The notes under the pieces are model-generated. The model had not been told where the DNA came from. It did not search any database and saw only the letters and a program-made list of their open reading frames with translations. A stretch of 64,000 bases of DNA from Terriglobia bacterium (GTDB lineage: Bacteria > Acidobacteriota > Terriglobia > Bryobacterales > UBA6623). Shown here in pieces: positions 19,374 to 32,922 of this stretch. Location: positions 1-64,000 of the forward strand of contig VXRL01000065.1 in assembly GCA_009838515.1 (NCBI GenBank), written 5' to 3'. Numbering within the stretch: position 1 is the stretch's first letter; the number at the start of each line of letters is the position of its first letter. The translations under genes were made by a program, and so were the position numbers.

Positions 19374-20933
19374 CTACCGGCGATGTTGGTTTGTGCCGAA
19401 CCGCGACGATTTCGACCACCGGACGCGCTCGGCTACGAATCGTGCGAAGGGGCCAATGTCTTGATCGATACTGGCCCTGTCTAGTGCCGTCAGGTATAGT
19501 TCTCGGTCGCTAATCCGAATTACTGTCCACGGATAGCCGCCGGACGCAAGCATAGCGTTCATCAAGAAGCGGGCGATGCGTCCGTTCCCGTCGGGGTACG
19601 GATGAATATAGCCTAGGAGCCAATGCCCCAGTACAGCCTTTACGCTTGGTTCCGACTCCCCACTCAGCAACTCAAACACCGTTGCCATAGCGTCAATGAC
19701 CGCTTCCCAGCGGGGCGGCACATACCTTGAGGTGCGCAGATAGACCGCATCGTTGCGATAGCCCGAGAGCGCGGGTGCGTCGACTAACCCTGCCGCCACA
19801 CACGGCTCGAACAGTTCCCTGTACCATTCGCGGTGGCTCCGTCGCACAACATCCGCGGGCTCCGCTCCGTCGAGAATCTTCGCGATGTCGCGTCTCACGC
19901 GCTGGAACGCCAGCCAGTACCCGCGTGCTGATAGTGCGTCGCGGCTCGCTCGATCCGCCGCGCTGTCTTCTGGGTTCCAGTCCCCGGAAGCGACGCGTTC
20001 TATGAGGTCTGGCGAAACGTCGTAGCCCTCGATCGATAGCGAGTGATAGGCATCGCTCTGGTAGCTGTCGTCAACGGCTCTGAGATAGGATTCACGATCA
20101 GCAGGCGGTCCCGGGGGATCTGGGAAGGACTCGATGACCTGTCCTCGCATCGCCTGCCACATCGCCCTCAGGCGCCCGACAAGCGGCTGTGGTGAAGCAG
20201 CAAGCTTAGTGATTGGCTGGTCCGGGGTGAACGGGTCCTTCTCGCGGACCTGGTATCCGGCCGCTCTCATGACGCTCAGGATTTCGTCGGCATCGTCGTT
20301 GTGGCCGACCCTCCGGAACGCACCGGCCAGCCGGCCAGCGACTACGGACTGCCCGCCCAGCAGCAGGAGTCGCAAGATTTCACCAACGTCGGCGACGTTC
20401 GCGAGAACGACGCGTGTCTCGACCGGGTTACGGCTGATGAACCTCTCCGAAACTCTGACCAGAGCGGCTGCCCGCGAATACAGGCGCAGACTATCTCGCA
20501 TGGTCATATCCGAGGCGAGCGGCACTTCCTTTTCCTTCAGGTCGTAAAGTGATGTTCCAAACGGCAGATCAATCTTGTTGTTCGCACCCCTCGGGCTGTG
20601 CACCACAACCTGGGTGGGAATAACCGTGCTGTCAGAGTGAAGCAGCAGGGATTGCGCGGGCGAGAGATGCCATGCCGTGTCGAATCGCTCTTCGCAGTAG
20701 CGAGCGCAGAATTCCCAGAACGACGCGTGCCATGGCGTACTGTCGCCATCCTGCGTTCCTGGATCGGACGAGATCAGCCAGCCCTTTATCACCTCTCGCA
20801 AGAAGCCGAATCGCAAGAGACGCTCCCGGTGCACTCGGCTGAACTCTCGCGACTCGAAAACACGCCGGCCGTCGTGCTGAAGCCTCTTGAGGACGTTTAG
20901 CGAGGCGGCGAGCTTTTCGTTTGGCGCGGGCAT
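19374..20933 (-). CDS. Fic-domain AMP-transferase with N-terminal AbiEi-like domain
   Basis: The 519-residue protein carries the Fic motif HPYPDGNGRIAR (His444 to Arg455) with the catalytic His. It also has an upstream inhibitory motif of the [ST]-x-x-x-E-[GN] type, Ser298 to Gly303 (SLSIEG), so it is a class II, self-inhibited Fic protein. The first 130 residues (RHRERLLRF-like segment, GFLREVIKGWLISSDPG) resemble the winged-helix N-terminus of AbiEi-type antitoxins and regulators. Fic enzymes add AMP or related groups to target proteins; the target is unknown. ATG 20933 has GAGG nine bases upstream. Four 24-bp-spaced repeats lie immediately upstream, suggesting control by its own DNA-binding domain (inference). 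G+C is lower than in neighbouring genes, compatible with transfer. Confidence 0.88.
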   Translation of the reverse strand: MPAPNEKLAASLNVLKRLQHDGRRVFESREFSRVHRERLLRFGFLREVIKGWLISSDPGTQDGDSTPWHASFWEFCARYCEERFDTAWHLSPAQSLLLHSDSTVIPTQVVVHSPRGANNKIDLPFGTSLYDLKEKEVPLASDMTMRDSLRLYSRAAALVRVSERFISRNPVETRVVLANVADVGEILRLLLLGGQSVVAGRLAGAFRRVGHNDDADEILSVMRAAGYQVREKDPFTPDQPITKLAASPQPLVGRLRAMWQAMRGQVIESFPDPPGPPADRESYLRAVDDSYQSDAYHSLSIEGYDVSPDLIERVASGDWNPEDSAADRASRDALSARGYWLAFQRVRRDIAKILDGAEPADVVRRSHREWYRELFEPCVAAGLVDAPALSGYRNDAVYLRTSRYVPPRWEAVIDAMATVFELLSGESEPSVKAVLGHWLLGYIHPYPDGNGRIARFLMNAMLASGGYPWTVIRISDRELYLTALDRASIDQDIGPFARFVAERVRWSKSSRFGTNQHRR

Positions 20934-21445: not shown

Positions 21446-22105
21446 GTGGATTGGTTGCTGGCGATTTTCTTTGGATTAGGACTGTTCGCCGCAAGAGACT
21501 CTCTGGGGTTGGCCGCGTTTCGAAGTCGCGGCCTGCGCTTGGTTTATGCGACGTCGTTGCTTGCTGCTGGCGCGGTTCTTGGTCTCGTAGCCGAGAGACT
21601 GTCGCAAGCCGAAGCGAGGGCGCTGGTGGACGAGCCTGCCGCATGGGCCACCGCGATCGCCGTACACGGCCTCTTGTGGATCCTATTCGAGCGAGCGAGG
21701 CGATCGAGCCCTCCTCGCTCGTGGTCTGCGTGGCTGTTCGCGATCCCGTCGCCGCTGTTGCTTTATGCAGCAGGAGCTGCTACCTGGCAGGCCCTTCGGT
21801 GGTCCAACCTGCCGGGGTACTTGGCCGGCGTTTCCGTCATGTTCGTCTATGGCGCCGTCGTTCTTGCGGCTGCGTTCGCAGGCCGCCGCCGGGCTAGGCT
21901 CGACGCCGGCGTTGGTGCCGCGCTGGGGTTTGCCGCGGTGTCGAATATGAGCGCCCTGCTGCTGGTCTTGCTTCCGCACGAGGCGCAGACCCAACGGATT
22001 CTGGCCCAGCAGATCGACTGGGTCGAGTCACTGTCCGTTCTCGGCATTGTTGCGTTGATGGTTGGCATCTCCTTTTGGGTCGCCCGTCATAGAAGGTCCT
22101 ACTAG
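21446..22105 (+). CDS. Polytopic membrane protein, HmuT-position component
   Basis: The 219-residue protein is almost entirely hydrophobic, with about seven predicted membrane helices (for example residues 3-20, 30-50, 66-82, 93-113, 124-146, 153-176 and 193-211). The last segment ends in a basic tail, VARHRRSY. I do not recognise a named domain. It starts at GTG 21446 and is followed after 21 bases by the TolQ/ExbB-like gene. In the Porphyromonas/Bacteroides hmuYRSTUV locus a small membrane protein (HmuT) accompanies the CobN-like HmuS, the ExbB-like HmuU and the DUF2149 protein HmuV. By position this gene may be the counterpart, but sequence similarity could not be checked. Confidence 0.6.
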   Translation: MDWLLAIFFGLGLFAARDSLGLAAFRSRGLRLVYATSLLAAGAVLGLVAERLSQAEARALVDEPAAWATAIAVHGLLWILFERARRSSPPRSWSAWLFAIPSPLLLYAAGAATWQALRWSNLPGYLAGVSVMFVYGAVVLAAAFAGRRRARLDAGVGAALGFAAVSNMSALLLVLLPHEAQTQRILAQQIDWVESLSVLGIVALMVGISFWVARHRRSY

Positions 22106-22126
22106 GCCTACCAGCCCTAACTAGCG

Positions 22127-22768
22127 ATGGAAGTCCTGTCGGGAATTCTCTACTCCCTCTCCAGCGCGTTCCTCGTGCCCACGCTGGTTGCTGTTCTCGC
22201 ACTGTTCGTCGGCACGACCTACCTCGTCGGGCAGTTGCTCTCCGAAGGTCTCGACCGGCGCGCCAATCGGGCTAGCCTGGCCGCCTGCCAGGCGGAGGGG
22301 CTGTCCCTAAACGGGTTCCTGCTGCAGCCGTGGCGAGGCCGGTTCGCGGCCGTCCAAAGCGCACTGAGCGCCAATGGACTCCATAGCGTTTTCGTCGACA
22401 GACGAGTTACCGACGTCGAGACGGCCCTGCGAGCCCGGATCGAAAGACTCGGAATCGTGTCCCGGGCGGGCCCGATGCTGGGCTTGATCGGAACGCTGAT
22501 TCCCTTGCAGCCCGCTCTTGCCGGGCTTGCCGAGGGCAACATGCAGCAAATGGCCTCCAACCTGCTGCTGGGATTTACCACGACCGTCATCGGCCTGGTG
22601 ATCGGCGGAGTTGCGTTCGCGCTTGGAACCATCACGAGGATCTGGGGACGCGCGGACTTGATCGAGATCCGGTTCCTGCTCGAGCGTTGGCGTGAAGAAG
22701 AGGAGCAAGCGTATGAACAGCAATCAACCGCAGCGCTCGCGTCTGCGGGACTGGAACTCGACCGCTGA
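22127..22768 (+). CDS. MotA/TolQ/ExbB-family proton channel (HmuU-like)
   Basis: The 213-residue protein has three membrane helices (about 15-37, 110-132 and 147-170) separated by a cytoplasmic loop. The family core reads RAGPMLGLIGTLIPLQPAL followed by MASNLLLGFTTTVIGLVIGG, close to the TolQ/ExbB motifs LGLLGTVxGI and ALxTTxxGLxxAIPA. Such proteins form pentameric channels that use the proton motive force to drive a periplasmic partner. Here the partner is expected to be the overlapping DUF2149 gene. It is the second gene of the six-gene operon and would supply energy for the CobN-like protein (inference from the hmu locus). Confidence 0.85.
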   Translation: MEVLSGILYSLSSAFLVPTLVAVLALFVGTTYLVGQLLSEGLDRRANRASLAACQAEGLSLNGFLLQPWRGRFAAVQSALSANGLHSVFVDRRVTDVETALRARIERLGIVSRAGPMLGLIGTLIPLQPALAGLAEGNMQQMASNLLLGFTTTVIGLVIGGVAFALGTITRIWGRADLIEIRFLLERWREEEEQAYEQQSTAALASAGLELDR

Positions 22769-23111
22769 CCCGCTAGATGGCACAGGAGGAAGTGGCGACC
22801 CGCTCGTCGGCGTGGTCAACCTCTTCGATGCATCGATGGTTCTCGTGGTTGCTCTCCTTCTAGCTCTTGCTGGCGCGGACAGCCTCGCCGAGATCGCGGC
22901 GCGTATGAGCCAGAAGGACATCACGATCGTGACGAATCCCGGGAAGCCGGACATGGAAATGATCGTCAAGCGCGGCGAGCGCATGGAGAAGCTCGAGGCT
23001 TCCGAGCTTCGAGGTGCAGGGAAGGGGACGCGACTCGGCGTGGCCTACCGGCTGGAGAGCGGGGAAGTCGTGTACGTGCCGGAGGGTGCACCCTCCGCGA
23101 CGGAGGAGTGA
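22713..23111 (+). CDS. DUF2149 protein, ExbD-like partner (HmuV-like)
   Basis: The 132-residue protein has one membrane helix (about residues 45-62: VLVVALLLALAGADSL) after GSGDPLVGVVNLFDAS, the typical DUF2149 entry sequence. It then has a periplasmic domain with ITIVTNPGKPDMEMIVKRGE and ends in GVAYRLESGEVVYVPEG. This single-span topology parallels ExbD/TolR, and DUF2149 genes usually neighbour ExbB-like and CobN-like genes. ATG 22713 was chosen over the in-frame GTG 22692 because GAGGAG lies eight bases before the ATG. It overlaps the preceding gene by 56 bases, and its stop overlaps the next start (ATGA), indicating translational coupling. Confidence 0.82.
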   Translation: MNSNQPQRSRLRDWNSTADPLDGTGGSGDPLVGVVNLFDASMVLVVALLLALAGADSLAEIAARMSQKDITIVTNPGKPDMEMIVKRGERMEKLEASELRGAGKGTRLGVAYRLESGEVVYVPEGAPSATEE

Positions 23112-26100
23112 TGACGCTTCGCCACAGGAAACTCATCAAATGGCTCGCCGCCGTGGCGGCCGCGCTGTTCTTGGCAGGTGGCGTTGCCTACCACGTGCTG
23201 ATGCCGAGGATGTTGTTCCTCGGCGTGCCTCCGCAGCAACTGTTCTTGCTGGCCGATGCCGCCGATGCGACAGGTGTCCGCTTTTGGTTCTGGTCGCGCG
23301 AAAAGATGGACGACCCGGACCTTGAGACGGCCGACTTCTCGCGCTACGACGTGATCTTCATCTCGAGTCGCCGCATGGAGCCGCTGACGCGGCCTGTCCA
23401 GGACGGGTTGACCGCAGCTGCCGCGCGAGGTGCCGGAGTGTTTTTCGTCCCGGCCGACCGGAACAACCGCCTCCGAGCGAGCCACGGGGATCCTGCCCAC
23501 GCCGAGCAGATCAGCGCGTATTGGGAGCACAGCGGGCCGCGCAACATGGCCAACCTTTTCCGGTACGCGGCCAGCCACTATCTCGGCAGCGGCGAGCCCT
23601 ACGAGGATCCGCAGTCGACGCCAGAGGACGGCTACTACCACCCCGAGGCGCCCGACCTGATGCTGTCGACGGACGAATACCTCCAATGGATGCGCGAGTC
23701 GGGCCGGTACCACGAGGCAGCGCCCCGCATTCTGCTGGACTTCGCCGATGGCTGGCGGCTCGGGATGACGACCGGAACAGGCGCTTTGCTGGAAGCCTTC
23801 GAGGCCCGAGGCGTCAACGTCGCCGCGATCTTCGGGAACGCGAAGCTGCCGCAGTTCGTGCGGGAGTTCCGGCCCGATCTGGTGATCTCGCGGCGCCATG
23901 GCCGCTGGTTCCAGGGGGCGCGCGGCGTCGAGCTGCTGGAATCGGAGTTCGACTTCCCCGTGATGCGCGGGGCGTCGCTGATGTTCACCGGTGAGACGTT
24001 CGAGCAGTACCGCCAGACCAAGAACGGGATCCGCGGGGTCGGCCTCGCCATGGGAGCGATCGTGCCCGAGATCGACGGGGCGATCGAGCCCACGCTCATC
24101 GAGGGGATGCGCGCTGAATGGACCGGCCGCCGCTTCGAGGCTGTGGAGCGGGAACGTATCGGCCGCCTGGCCGACCGCGCCCTGCGCTGGGTCCGGCTGC
24201 GGGCCAAGCCCAATTCCGAAAAGAAGGTCGCAATCATCTATGTCTCGGGTATCGGGAAGGGCAAGATCACCGCGGCCAGCCTGAACGTTCCGAGGAGCCT
24301 GATCCGCTTCCTCAAGGGCATGCAGGATGCCGGCTACCGGGTGGAGGGCCTTGCGTCGGACGCGGACGCGCTGCTGGCCGAGATGCTGCACAAGGGGCGC
24401 AACATCAGCGAGAGCCAGCGCGGGGAACTCGAGGAGCTGGCGTCCCTGGAAGGAGTCTCCCTGATCGACGAATCGGACTATCTGGAGTGGTTCGGGTCCC
24501 TGCCCGAGCCGTTGCGCGAGGAGGTGATCGCCGCGTTCGGCCCGCCCCCGGGCCAATTCATGACGGTCGAGCGAGACGGCCGCCGCCAGTTCGTCTTGCC
24601 GAAGCTCGAGTTCGGGAACGTGATCCTGATGCCGCAGCCGGCCCGCGGCGCCAACATGGACGCCCGACTCCAGCACAACGACCGGGTGCCTCCGAACCAC
24701 CAGTATTTGGCCGCGTACTGGTGGCTGCAACGCGAGTTCGAAGCTGACGCAATCGTCAACTACGGCACGCACGGAACCCACGAGTTCCTGCCCGGCCGGC
24801 CGCTCGGGCAGCTCGCTGACGACTGGTCCGACATCACGCTGGGGCGCATGCCGAACGTTTACGTGTACATCATGGACAACGTCGGCGAGGCCCTGATCGC
24901 CAAGCGCAGGGGCTCAGCCGTGACGGTCGACCACCAAGTCCCGCCCATCGGCGCGGCTTCGCTGTCCGAGGCCGATCCCGAAATCGGCGAGCTGTACCGT
25001 GCGGCGGAGCAGTTCGTCGGCCAAGAGGAGGGAAGCCTCAAGGAGCGCTTGCGCGAGCAGATCGCCCGCTCGGGCAGCGCGCGCGGGCTGGACGAGGATC
25101 TGGGCTTGGATTGGACCGAGAGGCTGCCGACGGACGAGGAGGTCGCCGAGCTGAAGCTCCATATCCACCTGATCAACGAGGACCGGATTCCGCTCGGATT
25201 GCACGTTCATTCGCAGAACAACCCCACCAGCGAGGCGGCTCCGCTGGTGACATCGATGGTCGGCAGCGACTACGTCCGACGCGTGGCCTTCGACGAGATG
25301 GGGTTGCGCGAGGAGGGCGGTACGAGGTGGGAGGCTGCCAAGCAGAGAGCCGTCCGCCATGTCGAGGCGGCCTTGGAAGGCCGGGGGGTCGCTCCCGCGT
25401 TGCGTGCGGACGAGGACCGGGTCAGGAGCATCTTCGCATCGCTCCGGCTCACCGCCCGGGAGATTCCCCAGACGTTGCACGCCCTCGAAGGCGGATACAT
25501 TCCTCCGGGAGGGGGCGGCGACCCGGTCCGGAACCCCTCAGCGCTCCCGACCGCCCGGAACCTGTACGGCATCAACCCGCAGGAAGTGCCCACGCGGGCC
25601 GCTTGGGAAGTCGGCGTTGCGCTGGCGGACGAGCTCCTCGATGCCGAGCGCGAGCGGCTCGGGCGCTACCCGAAAAAGATAGGTTTCACGCTCTGGAACA
25701 CCGAACTGATCCGGCATTACGGCACGGACTTGGCGCAGATCCTACATCTGATCGGCGTGCGCCCGGTATGGGATCACAACGGGATCGTCGCCGACTTGGA
25801 ACTTGTGCCCGTCGCGAAGCTGGGCCGGCCCCGGATCGACGTGATCATCCAGGCGGCCTCGCTGTTCCGGGACACCTTCCCGGACCGCATGGAATTTCTG
25901 GACAAGGCAGTACGGCTGGCTGCCGGAGCCGCCGATGGCGACAACTTCATCGCGGATCACGTCGAGGAGTCGCAGATCGCGTTGAAGCGCGCCGGCATGT
26001 CGGCCGAGGATGCCCGGCTCTATGCCGGCGCTCGAGTCTTCAGCAACAACGTCGGGGGCTACGGCACGGGCGTTATCGATAACACCATCCGCAGCGGCGA

Positions 26101-27055
26101 GTTCGAGGACACCGCCAAACTGACCGAGGAGTACTTGGCGCGCGTCGGAGCGGTCTATACCGAGGGTGCTGAGTGGGGCGCGAACATAGACGGACTCTAC
26201 AAGCAGGCGCTGGCTGGCACCGAGGCCGTCTCCCTGAGCCGCTCCACCAACGTGATCAGCCCGCTGACGCTCGACCACTATTTCGAGTATCTCGGCGGTA
26301 TGACCATGGCGGTGCGCGACACCACCGGCACGTCGCCGGAAACCTATGTCTCCGACGTGCGCGATGTCGAGCGCGGCCGCTTGGAGACCGTTCGGGAGAC
26401 GCTGACTCGCGACCTGCGGGGCAAGTACTGGAACCCGCGCTGGATCCAGGAGCAGCAGGAGGAGGGGTTCTCCGGAACGGTCGAGATCTCGCAAACCGCC
26501 ACAAACCTGTTCGGCTGGCAGGTGACGAAGCCAGAGGCGATCGACGACTACGTCTGGGACGAGGTCGAGCGGGTTTATGTGGAGGATTCCTTGGAACTGG
26601 GTCTTCCCGAGTGGTTCGATCGGGAAAACCCGTACGCGCTGCAGAACGTGACGGCCGTGCTGATCGAGGCCGCCCGCAAGGATTACTGGGACGCTGACGA
26701 GGAGACCCTTCGCCGAGTCGCGAATCGGTATGCGCGCTCCGTCGCGGACCACGGGCCAGCCGGGGACTCCCGGACCGTCGACAACGCCGCGTTCCAGGAA
26801 TTCCTGGGCCAGGCGCTAGCGGCTCCGGGCAATGTCGAAGGTGCCACGCTGCTGACCTCCTACCAGAGCTCCCTGGACCGGAGCGCAGGCTTGGCCGGGT
26901 CCGAGATCGTCCAAGGCCGCAGGCTCGTTCGCACCAGCGAGGAGAGCTCCGCGCCCGAATCCGACACGACAGGTCTTGACAGTTGGCTGCTGCTGGGGTT
27001 GGCGGTCTTGGGAACTGCGCTTCTCATCGGCGTGAAACTCCGCAAGCAGCCCTAG
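23108..27055 (+). CDS. Membrane-anchored CobN/ChlH-family chelatase (HmuS-like)
   Basis: This 1315-residue protein belongs to the CobN/magnesium-chelatase H family. The signature region, NYGTHGTHEFLPGRPLGQ (about residue 550), corresponds to HxGTHGxLEFLPGK of ChlH/CobN. HLINEDRIPLGLHVHS, ARVFSNNVGGYGTGV (about residue 975) and WNPRWIQEQQEEGFSG are also family blocks. Unlike cytoplasmic CobN it has a membrane helix at each end (about residues 9-27 and 1290-1308, then KLRKQP), so the body should lie in the periplasm. No CobS/CobT or ChlI/ChlD partners are nearby; an ExbB-like channel and a TonB receptor are. This matches HmuS, which removes iron from heme in Bacteroidetes. The substrate here (heme or another metal tetrapyrrole) is inferred. 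Confidence 0.88.
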   Translation: MMTLRHRKLIKWLAAVAAALFLAGGVAYHVLMPRMLFLGVPPQQLFLLADAADATGVRFWFWSREKMDDPDLETADFSRYDVIFISSRRMEPLTRPVQDGLTAAAARGAGVFFVPADRNNRLRASHGDPAHAEQISAYWEHSGPRNMANLFRYAASHYLGSGEPYEDPQSTPEDGYYHPEAPDLMLSTDEYLQWMRESGRYHEAAPRILLDFADGWRLGMTTGTGALLEAFEARGVNVAAIFGNAKLPQFVREFRPDLVISRRHGRWFQGARGVELLESEFDFPVMRGASLMFTGETFEQYRQTKNGIRGVGLAMGAIVPEIDGAIEPTLIEGMRAEWTGRRFEAVERERIGRLADRALRWVRLRAKPNSEKKVAIIYVSGIGKGKITAASLNVPRSLIRFLKGMQDAGYRVEGLASDADALLAEMLHKGRNISESQRGELEELASLEGVSLIDESDYLEWFGSLPEPLREEVIAAFGPPPGQFMTVERDGRRQFVLPKLEFGNVILMPQPARGANMDARLQHNDRVPPNHQYLAAYWWLQREFEADAIVNYGTHGTHEFLPGRPLGQLADDWSDITLGRMPNVYVYIMDNVGEALIAKRRGSAVTVDHQVPPIGAASLSEADPEIGELYRAAEQFVGQEEGSLKERLREQIARSGSARGLDEDLGLDWTERLPTDEEVAELKLHIHLINEDRIPLGLHVHSQNNPTSEAAPLVTSMVGSDYVRRVAFDEMGLREEGGTRWEAAKQRAVRHVEAALEGRGVAPALRADEDRVRSIFASLRLTAREIPQTLHALEGGYIPPGGGGDPVRNPSALPTARNLYGINPQEVPTRAAWEVGVALADELLDAERERLGRYPKKIGFTLWNTELIRHYGTDLAQILHLIGVRPVWDHNGIVADLELVPVAKLGRPRIDVIIQAASLFRDTFPDRMEFLDKAVRLAAGAADGDNFIADHVEESQIALKRAGMSAEDARLYAGARVFSNNVGGYGTGVIDNTIRSGEFEDTAKLTEEYLARVGAVYTEGAEWGANIDGLYKQALAGTEAVSLSRSTNVISPLTLDHYFEYLGGMTMAVRDTTGTSPETYVSDVRDVERGRLETVRETLTRDLRGKYWNPRWIQEQQEEGFSGTVEISQTATNLFGWQVTKPEAIDDYVWDEVERVYVEDSLELGLPEWFDRENPYALQNVTAVLIEAARKDYWDADEETLRRVANRYARSVADHGPAGDSRTVDNAAFQEFLGQALAAPGNVEGATLLTSYQSSLDRSAGLAGSEIVQGRRLVRTSEESSAPESDTTGLDSWLLLGLAVLGTALLIGVKLRKQP

Positions 27056-27101
27056 CCACGCGGAACCATCCGGGTGGCATCGCAATTGAAAGGAAGAAAC
27101 C

Positions 27102-29990
27102 ATGAAAACGATAATTCACACAGCAATCCTCATTTCCACGTGCCTGTTCGGCACTGGCCAGCTAAGCGCCCAAGTCGGTTCTGCGACGCTGACCGGAACG
27201 GTTCTGGATCCGTCAGGAGCGCCAGTCGCCGACGCGACCGTCACGCTGGAATCCCTGCGGACGGGAGCGGTCACGGAGTCCCTAAGCTCTGGCGCTGGAC
27301 TGTATCGACTGGCCGGCCTCGACACCGGCGCCTACCGGCTGGTAGCTGAGAGGGACAGCTTCCGCGCCTACCGAGCCGAAGACATCGACCTGGTCGCGGG
27401 CCAAGAGGTCACGCACAACATCCGCCTCGAACTCGGCCTTGTCTCCGAGGAAATCACGGTGGTCGGCTCGTTCGCCGAGATCGAGCGGGTCGCCTCCAGC
27501 GGGGTGCGCGGATCCAGCTATGAGCCGTCGGAGGTCGCCAGCATCCCGATGGTGACCAACAACGTGGGTCGGAACTATCGGGCGATCAGCTACCAGACTC
27601 CCGGCGTGGGCTTCGCGCGTTCGAGCCACGCGCCGTTCACGGTCAACGGCAACCGGCCGCTCGGCGCCGTGAACACGATGGTCGATTCTGCCGAGTACAA
27701 CGATCCGGTCGCCGGCAACCTAATGGGGCGCGGGCTGACGGAGCAGCCCGTCTCGATGGAGACCGTCGAGGCGTTCGAGCTGCAGACGTCGAACTTCAAG
27801 GCCGAGTTCGGACGGGCTTCCGGCGCAGTCGTCAATCTCGTGACCAAGCGTGGCGGGAACGAGTGGCACGGATCTGCCTATCACTTCTTCCAGAACGAAA
27901 AACTGAACGCACGGGGGGCGTTGCTCTCCCAGCGCCCGGAGCGACGGCTCAACATGCCCGGCGTCACGCTGGGCGGGCCCGTCGTTCGCAACAAGCTGTT
28001 CTTTTTCGGCGGATACGAGTTGGGCGTGCGCAACCAGTACCGCGCCTCGTCGACGATCCAAACCCTGACCGCCGAACAGCGCGCGAGGGCTGCCCCGAGC
28101 GTCCGCGCCTTGCTGCCGCTCTACCCGGAGCCGAACGTTCCGGGCACGAACCTTCACAGCGCGGCCGTGCCGAGTCCGCAGACCAGCCAGACAGGGCTGC
28201 TCCGGCTCGATTGGCAGCCCGGCGACCGGCACCGACTCAGCGCCAGGGGTAACTGGGTCAACGCGATCGGCCCGACCCGGTCCCGCCTCGCCGCCGGCAA
28301 CGCGGAAACCGACAACTACTCCCGCTCCGGGGTCGTCAGCTTGGAATCGTCCCTTTCCCTAAGGGCGTTCAACCAGTTCCGCGGGACGTACTCAACCTAC
28401 AACGCGCAAGTCAGCCCCGGCACTCCCTCTCTCGGTGATCCGGCGCTCAACGGGCAGGCGGGAGTCATTCTGGTGACCGGCCTGCCCCGTCTGGGCACGT
28501 TCATTCCGCTGACCCAGACCCGTTTCCATAACTACACGTACTCCAACGACTTCACCTTGGTAAAGGGCGGACACTCGCTGAAGGCTGGAGTGATCGGACG
28601 ACACATCCAGTACAACTCCGTCAGCGACCGCAACTTCAACGGGTTCATGATCTTCCCTTCGATCGGGGCGTTCCTGGGCGGCCAGCCTCTTGTCTACTCC
28701 CGCGCATTCGGCGACTCGCGCATCGACCAGCGCAACCACGAATTCAGCCTCTATGCGCAGGACGACTGGCGGATCACCCCCAGCCTGACGCTCAACCTGG
28801 GCCTCCGCTACGAGTACTACGGTGTCCCCAGCGAGAAGTACGGCCGGCTCGAGCAGGACTACCGCTCCGATCCGAACAACATCGCGCCCCGGGCCGGCTT
28901 CGCGTGGAACCTCGGCGGGGCCGACACGACTGTCCTGCGGGGCGGCTACGGTTTCTTCTTCAGTCCCCTGCAGATGGGCTTCATCGCGCAGTCGCGGTTC
29001 GCGCCGCCACGAATCACTACCTACTCCCGGTTCCGCCCAAGGCTGCCAGACCCCCTAGAGGGTGCCCGGGTCGGTTCCGACGAGTACGTTTTGGACCGCG
29101 GGTTGGTCAACCCTTACGTGCAGAACTGGAACCTCACTCTCGAACGCCAGTTGTGGGGCATCGGTTCCGTCGGGAGTATTGCCTACGTTGGGAACCGGGC
29201 GCTCAAGCTGACCAGGACCTCGCTGCCGAACGGCGGGCCGAACCTGCGCGGGCCGTTTCGCCCTGACCCCAGCCGCGGGGTGGTGAGTTACCTGACCGGC
29301 GGCGCATACTCGGATTACGACTCCCTGCAGGCTTCGCTGCGGGCGCGCTTGGGGCGAGGCCTCTCGTACCGCTTGGCCTACACGTTCTCGCGGACCATCG
29401 ATGTGGCTTCGAGCTCCGGCACCGTGCCGACTGACCAGTCCGACTGGAACTTGGATCGCTCCTTCGCCGACTTCCACCAGCCGCATGTGCTGACCGCCTT
29501 CGGCACCTACCAGCTGCCATTCGCCCGGCGGCGGCGCCTGCTGGGCGGCTGGCAGGTTGGCACTCTCCTGTGGGCGCGCAGCGGCAGCCCGTTCTCGCTC
29601 CTGTCGAACACTGACAATCCGAACGGGTCGCGGATCAACCGGATCAACGATGTTGCGGGAGCAATTGATCGCTCGCCCATGGGCAGCCAGCAGTTCCGGC
29701 TGGCACAGGGGGTTGAGCCGGACCAGATCCTGCCGGCCCCCGGCATGGTGGGTTCGTTGGCCCGAAATTCCGAACTGGGCCCATCCTACTTCGACCTCCA
29801 CGTGACGTTGGAGAAGGAGATCCCCGTCCGGGACGCCGCGAGCGTGAGGTTCCGGGCGGAGGTCTTCAACATCCTGAACCGGGTGAACTACCACCAGCCG
29901 ATCAACAACATTGGTGACGGGCGGTTCGGCCAGGCCGTGAGGACTTACGAGCCGCGCCAGTTCCAGCTTTCGCTGCGGGTGACCTTCTAG
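27102..29990 (+). CDS. TonB-dependent receptor, Oar-like with N-terminal carboxypeptidase-regulatory domain
   Basis: The 962-residue outer-membrane protein has a signal peptide (about 1-23) and a carboxypeptidase-regulatory-like Ig domain (GTVLDPSGAPVADATVTLES, to about residue 110). A plug follows (PFTVNGNRPLGAVNTMVD; FKAEFGRASGAVVNLVTKRGGNEWHGSAYHF), then a large beta-barrel ending in LSLRVTF with the terminal Phe recognised by the Bam machinery. Acidobacteriota have many such receptors, usually thought to import glycans or other large substrates. ATG 27102 follows AAAGGAAG. It lies 46 bases after the CobN-like gene and directly abuts the next gene, so it is probably the capture component of the same system. 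Confidence 0.85.
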   Translation: MKTIIHTAILISTCLFGTGQLSAQVGSATLTGTVLDPSGAPVADATVTLESLRTGAVTESLSSGAGLYRLAGLDTGAYRLVAERDSFRAYRAEDIDLVAGQEVTHNIRLELGLVSEEITVVGSFAEIERVASSGVRGSSYEPSEVASIPMVTNNVGRNYRAISYQTPGVGFARSSHAPFTVNGNRPLGAVNTMVDSAEYNDPVAGNLMGRGLTEQPVSMETVEAFELQTSNFKAEFGRASGAVVNLVTKRGGNEWHGSAYHFFQNEKLNARGALLSQRPERRLNMPGVTLGGPVVRNKLFFFGGYELGVRNQYRASSTIQTLTAEQRARAAPSVRALLPLYPEPNVPGTNLHSAAVPSPQTSQTGLLRLDWQPGDRHRLSARGNWVNAIGPTRSRLAAGNAETDNYSRSGVVSLESSLSLRAFNQFRGTYSTYNAQVSPGTPSLGDPALNGQAGVILVTGLPRLGTFIPLTQTRFHNYTYSNDFTLVKGGHSLKAGVIGRHIQYNSVSDRNFNGFMIFPSIGAFLGGQPLVYSRAFGDSRIDQRNHEFSLYAQDDWRITPSLTLNLGLRYEYYGVPSEKYGRLEQDYRSDPNNIAPRAGFAWNLGGADTTVLRGGYGFFFSPLQMGFIAQSRFAPPRITTYSRFRPRLPDPLEGARVGSDEYVLDRGLVNPYVQNWNLTLERQLWGIGSVGSIAYVGNRALKLTRTSLPNGGPNLRGPFRPDPSRGVVSYLTGGAYSDYDSLQASLRARLGRGLSYRLAYTFSRTIDVASSSGTVPTDQSDWNLDRSFADFHQPHVLTAFGTYQLPFARRRRLLGGWQVGTLLWARSGSPFSLLSNTDNPNGSRINRINDVAGAIDRSPMGSQQFRLAQGVEPDQILPAPGMVGSLARNSELGPSYFDLHVTLEKEIPVRDAASVRFRAEVFNILNRVNYHQPINNIGDGRFGQAVRTYEPRQFQLSLRVTF

Positions 29991-31205
29991 ATGCCGACGA
30001 TAGGAAAGGCGATTCCCCTTGCCGCCCTCATGGCCGCGGCTCTGCTGGCGGGGGACAGCTGGCCCGGATTTCGCGGCGACGGATCGAGCCTTACCCCGGC
30101 TCGTGGATTGCCGGTAGCTTGGTCCGACCAGTCCAACGTGGCTTGGTCAGTCGGGATTGAGGGCTACGGGCAGTCGAGTCCGGTCATTCTGGGTGGCACA
30201 GTGTATGTCACGTCTACGGTGGGCAGCCGCAAGGAGACCTTGGTGACCGCGGCATACCGGCTCTCCGACGGTGAACTTGCGTGGATGGATCGAAGGCCTT
30301 CTTCTGCGCCGGCGGACGCGCACGAGCGGTTGTCGAACGCCGCGCCCACGCCCGTTGTGGACAAGCATGGCGTCTATGCGTTCTTCGAGAGCGGCGACCT
30401 GATCGGGCTGGACCACGCGGGGAAGCAGCGCTGGGCCCGCTTCCTACCCCGGAGCGGCGAAGACTGGAGCGGCAGGCACGGTCTCGGCAGCTCGCCCGTC
30501 CTCTTGGGGGACCGTCTCTTTTTGCATGTTGCACCGTTCGGAGCCGGGCGTGTGTACGCGATCGCCAACGAAGACGGCCGCGACGTTTGGGTGCGAGACC
30601 TGCCCCCGGCTCCGTCCTTCTCAACGCCTGTGATAGTTCAGCACGAGGGCCGCTCGCTGCTGCTGACCACCGCTGGGGGCGGGGTGGCGGCATTCGACAT
30701 GAACAACGGTGAGGAGGTCTTCCGCCGTCCGGCAAAAGGCGGTCGCGGCTACGCGGTTCCGTCGGCCGGCGTGGCGGGGAGCATGGTAGTGATTGCCTCG
30801 GGCGAAGCCCGCGGGACACACGCGTTCCGGCTGGACGCTCCGGACGCGACACTGTGGACGGCTGAAAAGGCCACGACCGAGTTCAGTTCGCCACTGATCG
30901 CCGGAGGCCGCGTCTGGATCGTGAATTCCGTCGGCGTGCTCTTCGAACTGGACCTGAAGACTGGGCAGCAAGTCTCCACGAGAAGGCTTCCGTCCGGATG
31001 CTGGGCGACAGGCATATCGGACGGGGAGCGGCTCTACTTCTTCGGAGTCGACGGAACGGCCGCGGTCCTGTCCCAGTCCAGTGGCGAAATGGTTGCGACG
31101 AACCGGCTCAGCATCGAGGGGCGGGTCTACGGCGTGGCAGCCGCGGACGGGTCATTCGTAGTCCGGACGGGGAATCAGCTGGTGCGAATCGAAAGCAAAC
31201 CATAG
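29991..31205 (+). CDS. Secreted PQQ-type beta-propeller protein
   Basis: The 404-residue protein has a short signal peptide (about 1-21) and begins SWPGFRGDGSSLTPARGLPVAW, the usual opening of the PQQ-like WD40 proteins found in Planctomycetes and Acidobacteria. Propeller strands recur, such as YGQSSPVILGGTVYVTS, GLGSSPVLLGDRLFLHV and EFSSPLIAGGRVWIV. No dehydrogenase catalytic residues are apparent, so it may be a binding or scaffold protein. Its ATG directly follows the TAG of the TonB receptor, so translation is coupled. This is not a known hmu component and could be an accessory factor of the transport system. Confidence 0.75.
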   Translation: MPTIGKAIPLAALMAAALLAGDSWPGFRGDGSSLTPARGLPVAWSDQSNVAWSVGIEGYGQSSPVILGGTVYVTSTVGSRKETLVTAAYRLSDGELAWMDRRPSSAPADAHERLSNAAPTPVVDKHGVYAFFESGDLIGLDHAGKQRWARFLPRSGEDWSGRHGLGSSPVLLGDRLFLHVAPFGAGRVYAIANEDGRDVWVRDLPPAPSFSTPVIVQHEGRSLLLTTAGGGVAAFDMNNGEEVFRRPAKGGRGYAVPSAGVAGSMVVIASGEARGTHAFRLDAPDATLWTAEKATTEFSSPLIAGGRVWIVNSVGVLFELDLKTGQQVSTRRLPSGCWATGISDGERLYFFGVDGTAAVLSQSSGEMVATNRLSIEGRVYGVAAADGSFVVRTGNQLVRIESKP

Positions 31206-31380: not shown

Positions 31381-31422
31381 GGATTGCAGTGCGCCAAGGG
31401 AAGCCCCGGCGCACTGCAATCC
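31381..31422 (+). promoter_or_regulatory. Perfect 15-bp inverted repeat before a sulfatase gene
   Basis: GGATTGCAGTGCGCC (31381-31395) and its exact complement (31408-31422) flank a 12-base spacer. The repeat ends 21 bases before the sulfatase start codon, just upstream of its GAGGA ribosome-binding site. It could be a two-site operator, an RNA hairpin controlling translation, or a terminator. No U tract follows. Confidence 0.6.
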
Positions 31423-31443
31423 CCCAACAACAGAGGACGAGCT

Positions 31444-32922
31444 ATGACACGCGCACCCCGATTGCCAATTGCGCTCGCTGGGCTTGCTATGGCTGTACAG
31501 ACGCCAGCGGCAGCTGTCGACCTGCCCAATTTCGTGGTCATCATGACCGACGACCAAGGCTACGGCGACTTGGGAGTGCAGGGCCACCCTTCGATCCGCA
31601 CGCCCCGCATCGACCGCATGGCAGCCGAGGGCCTGCGCCTGACAGACTACTATGCGCAGCCGTTTTGCGGCCCGGCCCGGGCAGCCCTGATGACCGGAAC
31701 CTATCCGCCGCGCAACAGCCTGATGTTCAACCACATCCCGAGGGCGCGAACGGGCATCCACCCGAACGAGGTGACCATCGCCGAGCTGCTGGGTGATCGG
31801 GGCTACGCCACCGCCATGCTGGGTAAGTGGCATCTGGGTGACGCGCCTGAATTCCTGCCGACGCGCAACGGCTTCGACACCTACTATGGCCTGCCTTACT
31901 CCAACGACATGTGGCCCTTCCACCCCAAGATCGAGCGCCGTCCCGATGAAAACGAGCGCATGCGCTACACCCGCGAGCGCACGGCCTACACGGGCTACGC
32001 ACAGTCCGACGAAACATATCCGCTCGATTGGTTTCCGCCCCTGCCGCTGATCGAGAACGGGAGCGTTATCGAGCGCAACCCGCTCCAGGAACTGTTGACT
32101 GCGGCCTACACGGACAGGGCCATCGAGTTCATCCGCGCGAACCGCGAAGGGCCGTTCTTCGTCTACATCGCGCACTCCATGCCACACGTTCCGCTGTTCC
32201 GCGGCCGGGCGTTCCGCGACAAGTCGCTGCGCGGTCTCTATGGCGACGTGATCGAGGAGATCGACCACCACACCGGCCGCTTGCTCGACACGCTGGACGA
32301 GCTGGGTCTTGACGAGCGAACCCTGGTGATCTTTACCTCCGACAACGGACCGTGGTCCGGCTACGGTATCGATTCGGGTTCGGCGGGCCTGCTGCGCGGC
32401 AGCAAGGGCACGGTATACGAGGGCGGCATCCGGGTTCCGGCGATCCTGCGCTGGCCGGGCCGCATCCCGGCCGGACTGGTCTCGTCCACGGTCGCTTCGG
32501 TGATGGACATCCTGCCGACCCTGGCGCAGCTGGCTGGCGGCGAGCCACCTCGGGATCGCACGATCGATGGCCGCGATCTAGAACCGTTATGGTCTTCTCC
32601 GGACAAGGCGACCGGGCACGAAGTGCTGTACTTCTTCGAGGGCGGCTATCGCTACCGGGCCGAAGACGGGCCTCCGGAAAACGATCCGCTCTTGCGCGCC
32701 GTGCGGGCCGGCCAGTGGAAGCTGCACCTTGGCACCGAGCCCGACGGCGAGGGCGTCAAGATCGTGCCCGGCGAGCTGTACCAGCTCTACTGGGATCCGA
32801 GCGAATCGCGCGACGTTGCGGACAAGCATCCGGACGTGGTCGCAAGGCTTACCAGGCAGGCGCAGTCCTTCAGCGACGGCCTGCGTGGCGACACCCGCCC
32901 CTTGGGCCGCCTGGCCGACTGA
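31444..32922 (+). CDS. Secreted type I sulfatase (arylsulfatase A-like)
   Basis: The 492-residue protein has a signal peptide (to about residue 24). The catalytic domain opens with NFVVIMTDDQGYGDLGVQGHP, holding the calcium-binding Asp pair. The formylglycine site is QPFCGPARAALMTG (Cys75 in C-x-P-x-R). Active-site segments AMLGKWHLGD and IFTSDNGPWSG follow, then EGGIRVPAILRWPGRI. It would hydrolyse sulfate esters in the periplasm or outside the cell. ATG 31444 was chosen because it has a ribosome-binding site and starts a signal peptide. A long inverted repeat lies just upstream. It converges with the GH2 gene. Confidence 0.9.
   Translation: MTRAPRLPIALAGLAMAVQTPAAAVDLPNFVVIMTDDQGYGDLGVQGHPSIRTPRIDRMAAEGLRLTDYYAQPFCGPARAALMTGTYPPRNSLMFNHIPRARTGIHPNEVTIAELLGDRGYATAMLGKWHLGDAPEFLPTRNGFDTYYGLPYSNDMWPFHPKIERRPDENERMRYTRERTAYTGYAQSDETYPLDWFPPLPLIENGSVIERNPLQELLTAAYTDRAIEFIRANREGPFFVYIAHSMPHVPLFRGRAFRDKSLRGLYGDVIEEIDHHTGRLLDTLDELGLDERTLVIFTSDNGPWSGYGIDSGSAGLLRGSKGTVYEGGIRVPAILRWPGRIPAGLVSSTVASVMDILPTLAQLAGGEPPRDRTIDGRDLEPLWSSPDKATGHEVLYFFEGGYRYRAEDGPPENDPLLRAVRAGQWKLHLGTEPDGEGVKIVPGELYQLYWDPSESRDVADKHPDVVARLTRQAQSFSDGLRGDTRPLGRLAD

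Follow-up and report, generated by a model that had tools for sequence, protein, structure and literature searches.

The window considered here, the whole 64,000-nucleotide stretch of DNA that was analysed, carries six plus-strand genes between positions 21446 and 31205, designated T, U, V, S, R and P in the order in which they occur. Spacing between them is tight, with 21 bp separating T from U, overlaps of 77 bp between U and V and of 4 bp between V and S, 46 bp between S and R, and 0 bp between R and P; the first-pass annotation, which had described six plus-strand genes with overlaps or near-zero gaps, is borne out by these coordinates. T (21446-22105) occupies the HmuT position and encodes a polytopic membrane protein with five hydrophobic segments by hydropathy, distantly related to DUF2162 ('predicted transporter') through a full-length Pfam match (E 1.4e-5) whose 25.1 bits fall below the cut-off of 34.4. 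U (22127-22768) encodes a HmuU-like proton channel of the MotA/TolQ/ExbB family, identified from Pfam (MotA_ExbB, 33.4 bits) and its motifs. V (22692-23111) encodes a HmuV-like DUF2149 protein (96.1 bits) with one hydrophobic segment at residues 41-59, in keeping with the single membrane span ascribed to it earlier, and its true start is probably the ATG at 22713. S (23108-27055), for which the ATG at 23111 may be an alternative start, encodes a HmuS-like protein of the CobN/ChlH family, matched over nearly its whole length by CobN-Mg_chel (975.3 bits) and bearing a hydrophobic segment at each end (residues 9-27 and 1293-1311), as had been proposed. R (27102-29990) encodes an Oar-type TonB-dependent receptor (OMP_b-brl_4, 458 bits; CarboxypepD_reg, 65 bits), the receptor class named in the first reading, and P (29991-31205) a PQQ/BamB-type beta-propeller (PQQ_2, 84.5 bits) with a hydrophobic N-terminal segment. 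The identities originally given to U, V, S, R and P are upheld by Pfam, and that of T as a polytopic protein by hydropathy, its DUF2162 match being weak. No gene for HmuY is found in the operon, as was first observed, and none for TonB or for cofactor synthesis. A predicted sulfatase gene (31384-32922) sits after P; it was considered as a seventh member of the operon and dropped, its presence being inconsistent across related loci. Upstream, a minus-strand gene (window positions 19374-20933) encodes a protein in which a Fic-like motif, HPYPDGNGR, can be read by eye.

The host genome (5.84 Mb, 99% complete) belongs to the Bryobacterales. Its nearest named relatives are Bryobacterales metagenome-assembled genomes such as RHO3_bin_12 and RHO3_bin_40, which are 95-96% identical in S and which, from their isolate names, we take to be sponge-associated. 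The order T-U-V-S-R-P is present in every sufficiently complete locus of this type (S1) in the window's genus, and T-U-V-S-R is seen again in Bryobacterales outside it. Other members of the order have the variant arrangement U-S-R-V, with T and U joined in one open reading frame; such fusions, of 395-414 codons, occur in four loci (L033:416-1660, L119:2567-3775, L121:10527-11714 and L122:6586-7800). Because the order recurs across the genus and in other Bryobacterales, the arrangement is not due to chance, and the operon is real and conserved. The expectation that all six genes are kept together in relatives holds for T-U-V-S-R and fails for P, which the neighbourhood survey places next to S in the window's genus only. 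For T-U-V-S-R, the tree grouping, the hydrophobic ends and the gene neighbourhoods examined show neither a cytoplasmic type of S, nor a want of membrane segments, nor a scattering of the genes, the outcomes that had been named as telling against the original reading.

Among solved structures the best relative of S is the heme de-chelatase HmuS (611 bits), followed by CobN (430) and ChlH (412). In a tree of 64 sequences the Bryobacterales S proteins form one clade (14 rows, SH-aLRT 100) beside a HmuS clade with members from Bacteroidota, Gammaproteobacteria, Planctomycetota and others, and are split from soluble CobN, BchH and archaeal forms with support of 100; the tree was built by a fast search with no bootstrap, and the composition of many rows is unusual, such that its deeper order is less certain than this main split. 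HmuS has been defined by the motif HFG(T/A)HG with the catalytic His-538, by LSLDHxxEFMGG with His-1209 and Glu-1212, by a heme site 1 comprising His-254-Gly-Arg in the neck and Met-79-Gly-80 in the head, by a Met-rich insertion in domain IV, and by a complete hmuYRSTUV and at least 50% identity to HmuS of B. theta (PMC12583661). His-538 is required for conversion of heme to protoporphyrin IX and Fe(II) (PMC12583661). S retains the core of these features, namely GTHG (H555), LTLDH (H1057) and a neck HGR (H264). At the first motif it reads NYGTHG, the catalytic histidine being kept and the first two letters differing; at the second it reads LTLDHYFEYLGG, with His and Glu kept and conservative changes elsewhere; and the neck sequence RRHGRWF preserves the His-Gly-Arg of heme site 1. 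At the position of Met-79-Gly-80 S aligns with Arg-Arg, and the Met-rich insertion is absent, S residues 751-778 covering residues 728-927 of B. theta HmuS. HmuY is missing and identity to Bacteroidota homologs is about 30%. Methionine at the Met-79 site is found mainly in Bacteroidales rows, with Arg in Chitinophaga, Gammaproteobacteria and Cupriavidus and Gln in two of the three Planctomycetota. As S lacks both Met-79 and the Met-rich insertion, its sequence places it in a sister family of HmuS rather than in HmuS itself. The first-pass naming of the locus as hmu-like is therefore sound as to the position of S beside HmuS, and overstated where membership is implied.

Automatic annotation would assign S to cofactor biosynthesis, as a subunit of a cobaltochelatase or magnesium chelatase, given the 975-bit CobN-Mg_chel match and the CobN models of NCBIfam that also recognise it. 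These NCBIfam matches fall short of every equivalog cut-off, the S clade lies far from annotated CobN and BchH, and the protein is hydrophobic at both ends; the operon has no cofactor-synthesis genes, and in a search for the ChlI type the host genome shows no clear AAA+ partner. A cytoplasmic enzyme of either kind is rejected on the tree, the motifs, the hydrophobic ends and the missed cut-offs, and the biosynthetic role is hardly credible; the view of S as HmuS-type rather than cytoplasmic CobN-type agrees with its best solved relative, motifs and tree position. It might also be supposed that R and P lie beside the T-U-V-S unit by chance, since the genome holds 176 matches to R, a large set of Oar-type receptors, and 23 to P, making such neighbours common, and P is limited to one genus. 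Against this, every complete Bryobacterales T-U-V-S locus examined has an orthologous R as its neighbour, often overlapping by 4 bp, and no ortholog of R is found in genomes that carry only a second, solitary copy of S (described below). Operon receptors of relatives score 1068-1326 bits against R, compared with 223 for the highest-scoring other receptor of the host genome, indicating that R is inherited together with the operon, to which it appears dedicated, and association by chance is very improbable. For P, with a best paralog at 268 bits, a purely accessory role is credible. In one related locus (L017) S is followed by a PQQ/Kelch protein of larger size, whose 240 bits against P are so close to the paralog score that orthology to P is not clear.

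The pore-type motifs of U, LGL-GTLIP and TTV, are conserved among 57 relatives, and in 23 sequences of V the residues N43, F45 and D46 are invariant, Asn43 and Asp46 lying in the membrane span. On sequence grounds pore motifs in U and a membrane aspartate in V are as would be expected for a proton channel pair. A search of PDB sequences with U gave no match. Profile alignment of V with four ExbD sequences by hhalign gave no significant match (probability 1.6%), but what it aligned was the membrane span including its Asp; searching PDB sequences with a V profile found nothing useful, and a fold search from a low-confidence model, poor in its periplasmic part, found nothing. The AlphaFold model of T is all-helical and of moderate confidence (pLDDT 70). 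Foldseek returned no significant match to it, and VIA-align likened it to half of MFS-type transporters with a Z no higher than 8.5, which is insufficient for an assignment.

A second S gene in the host genome, S2, is 57% identical to S and solitary (contig C23:76941-80813; L004:924-4829), with a sulfatase gene and a miaB-like gene as neighbours, and it is kept solitary across the genus. A solitary U2-V2 pair lies on another contig, C74, flanked by an rpiB-like gene and an aminotransferase gene (L007:9812-10778). S2 and U2-V2 are unlinked yet co-occur: in a single-contig genome (G421) S2 and V2 are about 55 kb apart, and the numbers of S and V genes are equal in all seven genus genomes searched for both, at two of each in four genomes, one of each in two and none in one. 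Independent evidence from the unlinked S2 and V2 amounts essentially to one co-loss (G480) plus retention. Across the class, S is found in 25 of 25 V-positive genomes and in 41 of 274 V-negative ones (299 genomes; Fisher p 6e-19, a value that ignores shared ancestry and in which S matches include ordinary CobN). Genomes with S2 only keep U2-V2 and lack R. Retention of S2 with U2-V2 in these R-less genomes favours S-U-V as the core functional unit.

The nearest known systems are those of HmuS-type de-chelatases, including hmuYRSTUV of Bacteroidota (PMC12583661), HmuS of P. gingivalis (PMC13227078) and BtuS1/BtuS2 of Bacteroides (PMC6460266). The Bryobacterales operon shares with hmuYRSTUV a CobN-like S that is hydrophobic at both ends and has the catalytic His motifs and the neck His-Gly-Arg, together with T, U and V partners and a TonB-dependent receptor. 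It differs in having no HmuY, an Oar-type receptor, the order T-U-V-S-R and, in one genus, a propeller, and in the arginine in place of Met-79 and missing Met-rich insertion of S. The same order of DUF2162, MotA/ExbB, DUF2149 and CobN-like genes, with a TonB-dependent receptor just before it, is found on pGLOV01 of Trichlorobacter lovleyi; its S, however, belongs to another clade without His-Gly-Arg, and ExbB-ExbD-TonB and corrinoid genes adjoin the cluster. This pGLOV01 region (L152:3633-15042) lies on a mobilizable plasmid and, besides T-U-V-S and ExbB-ExbD-TonB, contains corrinoid genes and genes for two TonB receptors. PA1922-PA1925 of P. aeruginosa likewise combines co-transcribed genes for a TonB-dependent receptor, a CobN-like protein, an ExbB/ExbD-annotated protein and a DUF2149 protein; unlike the present operon it is Zur-regulated and strongly induced by zinc starvation, T is not reported, and its S, as judged from stand-ins, likely falls in another clade (PMC4542158, PMC11761036, PMC9431628). 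Several families of Acidobacteriota carry a separate U-V-S group (L018-L022) with a different type of S, in which the neck His-Gly-Arg is absent and LDNDD replaces LSLDH; it likely acts on another substrate. In a further locus (G528:C5:77498-81010; L132:7214-11197) the S homolog is split by an in-frame TAG and is possibly a pseudogene.

The locus is probably a heme-use-like operon whose de-chelatase comes from the sister family of HmuS. Computation supports the gene identities, the conserved T-U-V-S-R, the retention of S-U-V where R is missing, the clade of S and its catalytic motifs; what the operon acts on, which way the reaction runs, how energy is coupled to it and what T and P do we infer from the features above. 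R would bring a metallotetrapyrrole, most likely heme, across the outer membrane. Anchored in the inner membrane by each of its ends and facing the periplasm, S would hold the tetrapyrrole in the cleft flanked by its pair of catalytic histidines and remove the metal as HmuS does; the equivalent of H538, needed in HmuS, is kept in S. U and V would form a TolQ/ExbB-like channel with a one-span, Asp-bearing partner that draws on the proton gradient, likelier acting on S, in place of the AAA+ motor of ChlH and CobN, than on the receptor. T, in the membrane, would be a physical partner of U and may carry the released metal or porphyrin inward. We hold this scheme as a whole, import by R, demetallation by S and use of the proton gradient by U-V, to have about an even chance of being right. 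Somewhat below even stands the more specific proposal that U-V is a proton-driven motor for metal extraction by S, a periplasmic class I chelatase running in reverse with its AAA+ unit replaced; on this proposal T, R and P would be clade-specific additions to a core of S-U-V.

The published picture for HmuR, HmuU and HmuV (PMC12583661) and for PA1924 (PMC4542158) is instead one in which the channel proteins energise the receptor. Applied here, U-V would be a dedicated ExbB/ExbD-like pair serving R, and S would need no proton energy; U and R do share one operon, and V carries a membrane-embedded Asp like ExbD. The operon contains no TonB, however, and a canonical ExbD is encoded elsewhere in the genome; the genomes with S2 retain U2-V2 in the absence of R; and Trichlorobacter has a separate ExbB-ExbD-TonB beside T-U-V-S. 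DUF2149 also occurs in Methanosarcina, an archaeon with a single membrane and no outer membrane. On the strength of the R-less U-V pairs, the Trichlorobacter ExbB-ExbD-TonB, the Methanosarcina DUF2149 and the lack of an operon TonB, a proton-driven chelatase is preferred and the receptor-energising role is considered rather unlikely. The main doubt, that over the metal, attaches to the proposal that the same architecture handles another metal or ring, taking zinc or cobalt from a metalloporphyrin, corrinoid or metallophore. The zinc response of PA1922-1925 speaks for it, as do the loss of Met-79 from S, the host's possession of two ferrochelatases of its own and the corrinoid genes cobT and bzaF that adjoin T-U-V-S in Trichlorobacter, where corrinoid use is suggested by gene neighbours only. 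Against this, the zinc-type proteins of Luteimonas, Azospirillum and Pseudoalteromonas, which stand in for PA1923, and the Trichlorobacter S fall in other clades and have no His-Gly-Arg, and it is this placement, with PA1923 represented by its stand-ins, that favours heme here. No cobalamin riboswitch reaches the Rfam gathering score in the window or eleven related loci. Counting against the heme reading, a simple match for Fur-type or other iron or heme regulatory sites upstream of the operon gave nothing convincing or conserved. Together with FeoB candidates, the two ferrochelatases are consistent with iron salvage by a heme-making organism. Use of another metal or ring is regarded as rather unlikely, and the operon probably lets these bacteria take a metal, most likely iron, from imported heme-like molecules.

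What is new is a Bryobacterales variant of the HmuS-type operon that has its own dedicated class of receptor and, in a single genus, also a propeller. Work on HmuS-type de-chelation has so far dealt with Bacteroidota of the gut and mouth, to which the Bryobacterales would add a receptor-linked sister system. Should this sister family prove active, Met-79 and the Met-rich insertion would be suggested to be features of lineage rather than requirements of the chemistry. Genomes that naturally keep S-U-V and have no receptor allow the two views of U-V, as energising the receptor or the chelatase, to be told apart and make them testable.
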